NCBI GenBank assembly: GCA_036271555.1
Contig: DATBAK010000001.1
Span: forward strand, 1-64,000
Source of the DNA: Acidimicrobiia bacterium
GTDB lineage: Bacteria; Actinomycetota; Acidimicrobiia; IMCC26256; PALSA-610
Length of the DNA stretch: 64,000 nucleotides
Direction: 5' to 3'
Under the pieces are notes generated by a model. The model was not told where the DNA came from. It was given only the letters and a program-made list of their open reading frames with translations, and did no database searches. The first letter of the stretch is position 1, and the number at the start of each line of letters is the position of its first letter. The position numbers and the translations under genes are program-made. Below are positions 59,598 through 62,576 of the stretch, piece after piece.

Positions 59598-59689
59598 GGG
59601 GCTGCGACCTCCGCCGCTCGATCCGGACGAGTGGAGTCGAGCGCACGGCTGACCGCGGCGGCGATCTGCGCCTGGCTGCTCAGCGACAC
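59594..59689 (-). CDS. Linker reading frame between mshA and the YbjN gene (family-1 copy C)
   Basis: The TGA at 59594-59596 overlaps the YbjN-gene start (ATGA). The in-frame GTG at 59689 gives 31 residues; the repeat-equivalent start is the CTG at 59683, which overlaps the mshA stop (CTGA) and gives 29 residues. The peptide reads LSSQAQIAAAVSRALDS and ends PDRAAEVAAP, related to the frame between nuoC and nuoD. Probably a coupling linker. Confidence 0.4.
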   Translation of the reverse strand: MSLSSQAQIAAAVSRALDSTRPDRAAEVAAP

Positions 59690-60912
59690 TGCACGAGGCT
59701 GCGCGCGACGAGGTCGCCGTAGGAGCGGCGCAGACGCGCGGCGGTGATGCTCCACGAGTAGCGACCCGAGCGCGCGACCGCGGCCTCGCCCATCTCCGCG
59801 GCGAGCAACGGGTTCGCGAGCACCTCTTCGACCCGCGCCGCGAACGCGGCGGGATCGTGACCGTCGACGAGGAAGCCGGTGACACCGTCGTCGACGAGTG
59901 AGCGCAAGCCTCCGACGGCCGCGGCGACGACCGGTGTGCCGCACGCGGCGGCCTCGAGCGCGACGAGGCCGAACGACTCGCTGCGCGACGGCACGACGCA
60001 GACGTCGGCCGCGCGGTAGAAGTCGGCGAGCCCGTCGTGAGGCTGCGGCGGTACGAAGCGCACCCGTTCGTCGAGCCCGAGCTCGGCGACGAGACGCTCG
60101 AGGCGGGCCGATTCGGCTGCGCCCGACGGGCCGCTCGGTCCACCGACGACGAGCAGGGTCGTGCGGTCGTCGGGGAGACCCGCGAGCGCCCGCAGCGCCA
60201 CGTCGGCGCCCTTCAGCGGCTGGATCCGGCCGACGAACAGGGCGAGCGGGCGGCCGTCGAGTCCGAGGCGCCCGCGCAGCGCGGCGCCGGCGCGCGGGTC
60301 CGGACGGAAGACGGAGTGGTCGACGCCGGGCGGCACGATCTCGACGCGGGAGGGCTCGGCGCCGTAGAGCTCTGCGAGCTGGTCGCGTTCCTCGGCGGTC
60401 GACGCGAGCATCAGGTCCGCGCAGTCGACGACTTCGTGCTCGAGCCGCGCGCGCTGCTCGGGCTCGTCGTCGAAGCCGGCTTCGGCTTTCACGCGCGCGA
60501 GCGTGTGGAACGTCGCGACGAGCGGACGGTCGAGCGCGTGCTTCAAGCGATGACCGACGGCCCCGGACACCCAGTAGTTCGCGTGCAGCACGTCGTAGTC
60601 GTCACCGGTCGCGTGCATGCGATCCAGCACCGCGTCGACGAACGGATCGACGAGCGTGGTGAGATCGTGCAGAGGGATCGGACGCGGCGGACCGACGTCG
60701 ATGTGCACGACGCGGAAGCCCTCTTCGACGCGCGTCACGGCGGGAACGTGTGGATCTTCGCGGCGCGTGAACACGTCGCACTCGACGCCGGCGCGCGTGA
60801 GCGCGCCCGCGAGCGCGCGCACGTACACGTTCATCCCGCCGCCGTCGCCGGAACCTGGCTGCGCGAGCGGCGACGTGTGAACGCTGAGAATGGCGACCCG
60901 GCGTACCGGCAT
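59680..60912 (-). CDS. mshA: D-inositol-3-phosphate glycosyltransferase (mycothiol synthesis)
   Basis: 410 residues of glycosyltransferase family 4. LSVHTSPLAQPGSGDGGGMNVYVRALA is the MshA-specific N-terminus, LFVGRIQPLKGADVALRAL the donor domain, and SRSESFGLVALEAAACGTPVVA the EX7E motif. It joins GlcNAc to inositol-phosphate, the first step of mycothiol, the low-molecular-weight thiol of actinobacteria. ATG 60912 is chosen for the family N-terminus (MPVRRVAILSVH). Confidence 0.95.
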   Translation of the reverse strand: MPVRRVAILSVHTSPLAQPGSGDGGGMNVYVRALAGALTRAGVECDVFTRREDPHVPAVTRVEEGFRVVHIDVGPPRPIPLHDLTTLVDPFVDAVLDRMHATGDDYDVLHANYWVSGAVGHRLKHALDRPLVATFHTLARVKAEAGFDDEPEQRARLEHEVVDCADLMLASTAEERDQLAELYGAEPSRVEIVPPGVDHSVFRPDPRAGAALRGRLGLDGRPLALFVGRIQPLKGADVALRALAGLPDDRTTLLVVGGPSGPSGAAESARLERLVAELGLDERVRFVPPQPHDGLADFYRAADVCVVPSRSESFGLVALEAAACGTPVVAAAVGGLRSLVDDGVTGFLVDGHDPAAFAARVEEVLANPLLAAEMGEAAVARSGRYSWSITAARLRRSYGDLVARSLVQCR

Positions 60913-60938
60913 GAACCCGGATGCTACCCGGGCCCTCC

Positions 60939-61334
60939 TCACTCGAACGCGGCGACCTCGCGCGCGCGTTCGGCGGCCGTCTCGGCCTGGAACGAGCGGT
61001 AGATCTCGATCAACGCTTGTTTCTGCCGCTCCGTGACGCTGTGGTCTCGGAGGATCTCGGCCTCGAAATCGGTGCCGTCGCCGCGTTCGTCGAGGATGCC
61101 GGCGCGCACGTAGAGCGTCTCCGCGGAGATGCGCAGACCCTTCGCGATCGCCTGCAGGATCTCGGCCGACGGCTTGCGCACCCCGCGCTCGATCTGGCTG
61201 AGGTACGGGTTCGAGATGCCCGCGAGCTCGCTCAGCTTGCGCAGCGAGAGCCGCGCCGTGCGGCGTTGATCACGGATGAACTCCCCGAGGTCGTGACGCC
61301 GGCTCGCCGAGGTCGCGTGCGCGGGTGCGCTCAT
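60939..61334 (-). CDS. XRE-family transcriptional regulator
   Basis: 131 residues. LGEFIRDQRRTARLSLRKLSELAGISNPYLSQIERGVRKPSAEILQAIAKGL is a Cro/cI-type helix-turn-helix, and a C-terminal helical region (EAEILRDHSVTERQKQALIEIYRSFQ) follows. Actinobacterial homologues occur beside rsiG-like and mshA genes. Start ATG 61334 is one base after the rsiG-like stop. Target genes unknown. Confidence 0.88.
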   Translation of the reverse strand: MSAPAHATSASRRHDLGEFIRDQRRTARLSLRKLSELAGISNPYLSQIERGVRKPSAEILQAIAKGLRISAETLYVRAGILDERGDGTDFEAEILRDHSVTERQKQALIEIYRSFQAETAAERAREVAAFE

Positions 61335-61335
61335 C

Positions 61336-61845
61336 TCAGCCGACGTCGGCGGCCGCGCGCGTCGCGATCTCGCGCTCGATCATGTCGAGCACGCGATGCA
61401 GCTCGCGGCGGTACTCGGACAGGTCGCGCTCGAACTCACCGAGCGCGTCGCGCATCTCACTGAGCTCCGTGTCGGAGAGCCCGTCGAGCGTGACCAACGA
61501 GTCGTCGGCGACGAGCCGACCCCGCGGACCCCACTCGATGTCGACGAGCGGTTCGTCGGCGACGGTGTGTCGCGCGTCCGCGACCGACGCGCGTCCGCGA
61601 TCGTCGCCGAGGATGCGAGGCAGGTCGGCAACGAGATCGCCGACGGACGCGCCCGACGCGCGCCGCTCCTGCTCTGCGGTGAGGATCTCGAACCGGCCCT
61701 GCGCGAGCCGGCGCGTGTACGAGACCGCATGCTCGATCGAGCTGCACTCGGCGCGCATCGCACGCAGCGACTCGAGATCGCGCCCGCCGAGATCGGCCGA
61801 GAACTCGGGAGCGATGATGCGTTGGATCCGTTGCGTCGTTCTCAC
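61336..61845 (-). CDS. rsiG: RsiG-family anti-sigma factor homologue (c-di-GMP-binding motif)
   Basis: 169 residues, helical, with two helices joined by a loop of about 70 residues. RsiG of Streptomyces sequesters sigma WhiG when bound to cyclic di-GMP through the motif E(x3)S(x2)R(x3)Q(x3)D in each helix. Here helix 1 has E38-S42-R45-Q49-E53 (the last residue Glu instead of Asp), and helix 2 has E139-S143-R146-H150-D154 (His for Gln). GTG 61845 is the start. The assignment rests on this motif match; the cognate sigma gene is not in the window. Confidence 0.72.
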   Translation of the reverse strand: MRTTQRIQRIIAPEFSADLGGRDLESLRAMRAECSSIEHAVSYTRRLAQGRFEILTAEQERRASGASVGDLVADLPRILGDDRGRASVADARHTVADEPLVDIEWGPRGRLVADDSLVTLDGLSDTELSEMRDALGEFERDLSEYRRELHRVLDMIEREIATRAAADVG

Positions 61846-62180: not shown

Positions 62181-62576
62181 TCAGTCGCGCGTGGTATCGA
62201 CGTTCGTGCGCGCCGCGGGGATCGCGTCGAGTCGCTCGGGATCGATGCGCTCGCCGGTGACCTCGTCGACGCCGTACGTGCCGTCGTCGAGGCGCTGGAG
62301 CGCGGCCTCGATCTCCGCGAGCTCGAACTCGAGACCTTCGAGGATCGACAGGTCCTTCTCGCGCTCGAAGGTCTCGCCGGTGACGGCGCCCGGCGGGCCT
62401 GCGACGTCGATCTTCTCGCCGCTGTCGTCGTCGCGCGCGGTCTCGTCGCGCAACTCGGACACGAGACCCTGCAAGCGCTCGCGCTCGGCGTCGAGTCGCT
62501 CCCGCGCGGCACCTTCGTCGATCGGGGTGTCGTCCATGGCGCCGAGGCTACCCATCCACGGTGAACACACACTCAT
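62181..62576 (-). CDS. DksA/TraR-like protein lacking the zinc cysteines
   Basis: 131 residues (118 if started at ATG 62537). The long helical hairpin (RERLDAERERLQGLVSELR and FELAEIEAALQRLDDGTYG) and the tail GTYGVDEVTGERIDPERLDAIPAARTNV match TraR/DksA, but the four Cys of the zinc knuckle are replaced (D, T, N and T-type residues). Such proteins bind the RNA polymerase secondary channel. ATG 62576 overlaps the upstream stop (ATGA), which favours that start. Confidence 0.72.
   Translation of the reverse strand: MSVCSPWMGSLGAMDDTPIDEGAARERLDAERERLQGLVSELRDETARDDDSGEKIDVAGPPGAVTGETFEREKDLSILEGLEFELAEIEAALQRLDDGTYGVDEVTGERIDPERLDAIPAARTNVDTTRD

Follow-up and report, generated by a model that had tools for sequence, protein, structure and literature searches.

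The window analysed here (the whole 64,000-nt stretch, positions 1 to 64,000 of contig DATBAK010000001.1, assembly GCA_036271555.1 of an Acidimicrobiia bacterium) contains a gene, rsiG, for an anti-sigma factor of the RsiG family with two predicted binding motifs for cyclic di-guanosine monophosphate (c-di-GMP); its coordinates and those of its neighbors are collected in Table 1. The open reading frame starts with a GTG codon, and its product matched the Pfam family RsiG (PF22802) with an E-value of 2.3e-25 and 88.5 bits, exceeding the curated cut-off of 27 bits more than threefold. In a phmmer search of the PDB sequences, the top match was the RsiG chain of Streptomyces venezuelae, 6pfj_T (2.6e-10), followed by the single-motif RsiG of Rubrobacter (0.0003). 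Homology to RsiG is given by both the PF22802 and the 6pfj_T matches, and a PF22802 search of the genome found this copy only.

The pattern E(x3)S(x2)R(x3)[QH](x3)[DE] has just two matches in the protein, and alignment with S. venezuelae RsiG placed one substitution in each of them, the terminal Asp of motif 1 being replaced by Glu (Glu53) and the Gln of motif 2 by His (His150). Two motifs of the published type, E(x3)S(x2)R(x3)[Q/H](x3)D, about 100 residues apart, are therefore present in a lineage form rather than letter-perfect: motif 2 with its His fits the published pattern, and motif 1 deviates by the terminal Glu. Coiled coils with many E, R and Q residues do give loose matches to such a pattern, and a generic coiled coil with the motif spacing arising by chance was considered accordingly; however, when the protein was shuffled 200,000 times, 0.13% of the shuffled sequences had at least one match, and none had two.

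The predicted structure leads in the same direction. The AlphaFold model, built from an alignment of 32 relatives, had a mean predicted local distance difference test (pLDDT) score of 89.8 and consisted of two long helices (residues 24-64 and 125-168) with one motif on each, the connecting loop region being less certain. The only PDB entries recovered by Foldseek at E ≤ 0.001 were four RsiG chains, 6pfv_T, 6pfv_B, 6pfv_E and 6pfj_T, with 6pfv_T at 5.8e-06. VIA-align gave Z-scores of 12.8 over 150 residues for 6pfv and 12.4 over 138 residues for 6pfj, against at most 9.1 for unrelated coiled coils; for helical bundles such a margin is supportive, and alone it is not decisive. By these three methods, the model has the predicted antiparallel coiled-coil fold of 6pfj and 6pfv. 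Long helices often reach middling structural scores, which is the other point in favor of a generic coiled coil, but the restriction of significant Foldseek matches to RsiG chains and the conservation of the protein across the class refute this explanation together with the shuffles and the Pfam match, leaving it a negligible chance. Thus, a sequence-only reading of this DNA, which had proposed an RsiG-like anti-sigma factor of the two-motif form with one substitution per motif and each motif on a helix, was confirmed by the Pfam, motif, alignment and fold data.

Table 1 Features of the rsiG locus (window coordinates)
Feature	Position	Strand	Basis
rsiG, twin-motif RsiG-family anti-sigma factor, 169 aa	61336..61845	minus	Pfam PF22802, phmmer, AlphaFold model
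Motif 1, residues 38-53, EHAVSYTRRLAQGRFE, E-S-R-Q-E, first coiled-coil helix	61687..61734	minus	Regular expression with shuffle control; alignments with S. venezuelae RsiG and 31 relatives
Motif 2, residues 139-154, ERDLSEYRRELHRVLD, E-S-R-H-D, last coiled-coil helix	61384..61431	minus	Regular expression with shuffle control; alignments; second PF22802 match (genome search)
XRE-type helix-turn-helix regulator	60939..61334	minus	Pfam HTH_3, 5.1e-13
mshA-like glycosyltransferase	59680..60942	minus	TIGR03449, 1.7e-130, 435.6 bits (slightly below the curated cut-off of 462.5)

The same reading had taken the two altered residues for drifted ligands, and this was not borne out by comparison with relatives, across whose order both residues proved to be either fixed or freely exchanged. 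RsiG was found in 54 of 61 related genomes, and Ser42, Arg45, Ser143 and Arg146 were invariant across the 32 aligned relatives; the invariance of Arg is taken from this independent alignment because the motif scan behind the larger table demanded Arg. In that table of 136 distinct twin-motif proteins, the terminal residue of motif 1 was Asp or Glu in all except three, and the fourth residue of motif 2 was His in 83, Phe in 22, Gln in 17, Leu in 10, Ile in three and Met in one. The tree placed the protein of the window within a family clade with full support, the 14 members of which all have Glu as the last residue of motif 1; this clade is nested in an order clade of 48 proteins in which Asp and Glu are mixed and the His of motif 2 is universal. 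Glu and Asp were swapped several times elsewhere in the order, and about one-third of the sampled order and class relatives carry Glu. Schumacher et al. described motif 2 as well conserved and the replacement of Gln by His as occurring in motif 1 only, where His at the stacking position is common (PMC8325347), so that the motif-2 position is looser in the present sample than in their description. The His-type RsiG of Conexibacter bound c-di-GMP at 25 uM alone and at 1.7 uM with WhiG (PMC8325347); variants with a stacking His are known to be functional.

These data also bear on the possibility of a decayed RsiG, in which the substitutions would weaken or abolish c-di-GMP binding and leave a constitutive or non-functional WhiG binder. 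In the solved complexes, guanine is contacted by both of the residues that are changed here (PMC8325347), and no assay of an RsiG having Glu as the last residue of motif 1 was found in the literature examined. However, the fixation of this Glu in the family, its exchange with Asp in the order and the invariance of the Ser and Arg residues are not what decay would leave; the His of motif 2 is shared by all sampled members of the order, with Leu, Phe, Ile or Met taking its place in other twin-motif RsiGs, and binding by the Conexibacter protein argues likewise. Since WhiG also retains its own c-di-GMP contacts (see below), decay is considered very improbable.

The cognate sigma factor, the absence of which the sequence-only reading had named as a refutation, was identified. 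A clear WhiG ortholog (G000:C36:88482-89159) scored 283.8 bits and was the only sigma factor of the genome above the FliA_WhiG cut-off; its top PDB match was S. venezuelae WhiG (6pfj) with 1.2e-96. It is located between a recombinase-like gene and rpsB-tsf-pyrH-frr (gene names assigned by eye), a neighborhood familiar from Streptomyces. Residues K40, G44 and R45 align exactly with K57, G61 and R62, the residues of S. venezuelae WhiG that touch c-di-GMP (PMC8325347). All three were kept in 30 of 32 WhiG orthologs, and the other two kept Lys and Arg with Ser in place of Gly. Moreover, the genome has 17 GGDEF matches above the cut-off, which point to an active c-di-GMP metabolism.

A second FliA/WhiG-like sigma factor (G000:C1:84949-85602; 182.7 bits), encoded about 21 kb past the end of the window, offers an alternative target for RsiG, as it shares a contig with rsiG and whiG does not. 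This target is very improbable: the protein lies below the FliA_WhiG cut-off, a true WhiG ortholog is present, and the positions of the K/G/R contacts are occupied by Q/S/E. Among 14 such sigma factors, including this one, 13 carry Gln or Gly in place of the Lys and Glu in place of the Arg; the remaining one (L334) has K/L/Q at the contact positions. As a partner of RsiG, the second sigma factor is therefore disfavored by its missing c-di-GMP contacts. Its orthologs are common in the family, none of them retaining the contact residues, and the protein carries a C-terminal extension (L005, L076).

As the sequence-only reading had noted, rsiG is accompanied by genes for an XRE regulator and MshA, as the HTH_3 and TIGR03449 matches bore out. 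The three genes are arranged head to tail: at the TGAgATG junction, the XRE gene starts 1 nt past the rsiG stop codon, and the mshA-like gene overlaps the end of the XRE gene. This tight packing suggests that all three are on one transcript. Among 83 distinct relatives, the XRE gene came immediately after rsiG in 67, and 78 had mshA in the conserved order; YbjN-like and ProC genes follow. The arrangement may tie a sigma antagonist to mycothiol synthesis, or it may merely be an old gene order. The XRE regulator is better conserved (mean identity of 70% over 83 related loci) than RsiG. Its identification as a c-di-GMP regulator of the BldD type was rejected, its sequence matches being ordinary helix-turn-helix repressors and ClgR, with no BldD structure among them. 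Additionally, the upstream genes conserved in many relatives include a 131-aa open reading frame (window 62181-62576) that resembles DksA/TraR by eye and has no Pfam match.

Taken together, the product of 61336-61845 is very probably a standard twin-motif RsiG acting via c-di-GMP on WhiG. The components observed directly in this genome (the family, both motifs, the predicted fold, a WhiG with c-di-GMP contacts and genes for c-di-GMP synthesis) would then work as follows. The RsiG monomer, an antiparallel coiled coil with one motif per helix, would grip a partially intercalated c-di-GMP dimer, with the terminal Glu of motif 1 replacing Asp in reading the outer guanine edge and the His of motif 2 replacing Gln in stacking on guanine. 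When c-di-GMP is plentiful, RsiG would lock up WhiG; when its level drops, the complex would loosen and WhiG would transcribe its targets. The binding of c-di-GMP, the sequestration of WhiG and the direction of control are deduced here from S. venezuelae and Rubrobacter. A more specific proposal is that the Glu-for-Asp replacement and the fixed His shift the affinity for c-di-GMP or make the hold on the dimer asymmetric, and that a WhiG program specific to the lineage, perhaps XRE-linked, consequently fires at another c-di-GMP level than in Streptomyces; this seems rather unlikely.

Several points weigh against a standard RsiG-WhiG switch at this locus. Both the binding of c-di-GMP and the interaction with WhiG are presumed from other systems, and no RsiG with a terminal Glu in motif 1 was among those assayed in PMC8325347. 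The rsiG gene is not adjacent to whiG, which is on a different contig, and although WhiG was present in nearly all genomes having RsiG (61 relatives; Fisher p 0.0009 to 0.004), this co-occurrence test rests on incomplete genomes and related species. Finally, there was no excess of WhiG/flagellar-type promoters in the genome or its relatives. The pattern TAAA-N15-GCCGATAA was searched in exact, relaxed and shortened forms with the reversed pattern as control; the genome had no exact match, and with up to two mismatches it had 18 against 21 for the control. Across the 61 genomes, about ten exact promoters were found, with the control no lower, and around the loci of T2SSE-type ATPases the WhiG-type promoters were not above control. 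The output of the switch was thus not seen in this search, since no promoter excess over the controls was obtained. T2SSE-type ATPases and a prepilin-like cluster are present, and pilus control as in Rubrobacter is a possible, if unsupported, output. A TACA-N16-GCCGATAT site before a PilB-like ATPase gene (L305) was unconvincing, being too near the predicted start codon.

The RsiG-WhiG switch, in both architectures, was published in 2021, and the twin-motif RsiG was reported for three of four Acidimicrobiales (Schumacher et al., PMC8325347). The extension of c-di-GMP control of sigma factors to this lineage, as claimed from the sequence alone, is therefore not new and was largely pre-empted, and the RsiG of the window is a sound but ordinary member of its family. 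Minor novelty lies in the tolerated motif residues and the conserved gene order; the present findings give a better annotation pattern for RsiG than the published one. Named RsiG loci (e.g., Acidimicrobiia bacterium KatS3mg009 and IMCC26256) confirm the Acidimicrobiia setting; IMCC26256, whose genome is complete, has WhiG as well as RsiG. Three loci of the Acidimicrobiia type (L160, L170, and L197) occur in records titled Bifidobacterium breve, which by their look are probably misassigned metagenome bins. Many single-motif RsiG-like proteins of about 80-125 aa, mostly E-S-R-H-D, were seen in numerous families of the phylum (loci L224-L302, e.g., L246, L255, L256, L276, and L279), and are thus more widespread than in the 2021 account, which had five species. 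Five to six RsiG-family matches in each of two genomes of the phylum, those of L265 (G168) and L272 (G119), hint at several RsiG paralogs, and the two motifs of L265 are separated by just 85 residues.

Compared with S. venezuelae RsiG (AmfC; 6pfj, 6pfv), the protein of the window is alike in its predicted fold and in the c-di-GMP contacts of its WhiG, but it shares only about 30% identity, has a motif 1 ending in Glu where the Streptomyces protein has Asp and a motif 2 with His where that protein has Gln, and is encoded in an operon-like arrangement with the XRE regulator and mshA. With the twin-motif RsiG of Acidimicrobiales (PMC8325347), which belong to the same class as the relatives of the window, it shares the architecture. 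The RsiG proteins of Rubrobacter (7lq2, 7lq3, 7lq4) and Conexibacter have a homologous motif helix, and that of Conexibacter demonstrates that a stacking His does not preclude c-di-GMP binding; however, these small single-motif proteins act as homodimers, whereas the RsiG described here combines both motifs in one chain.
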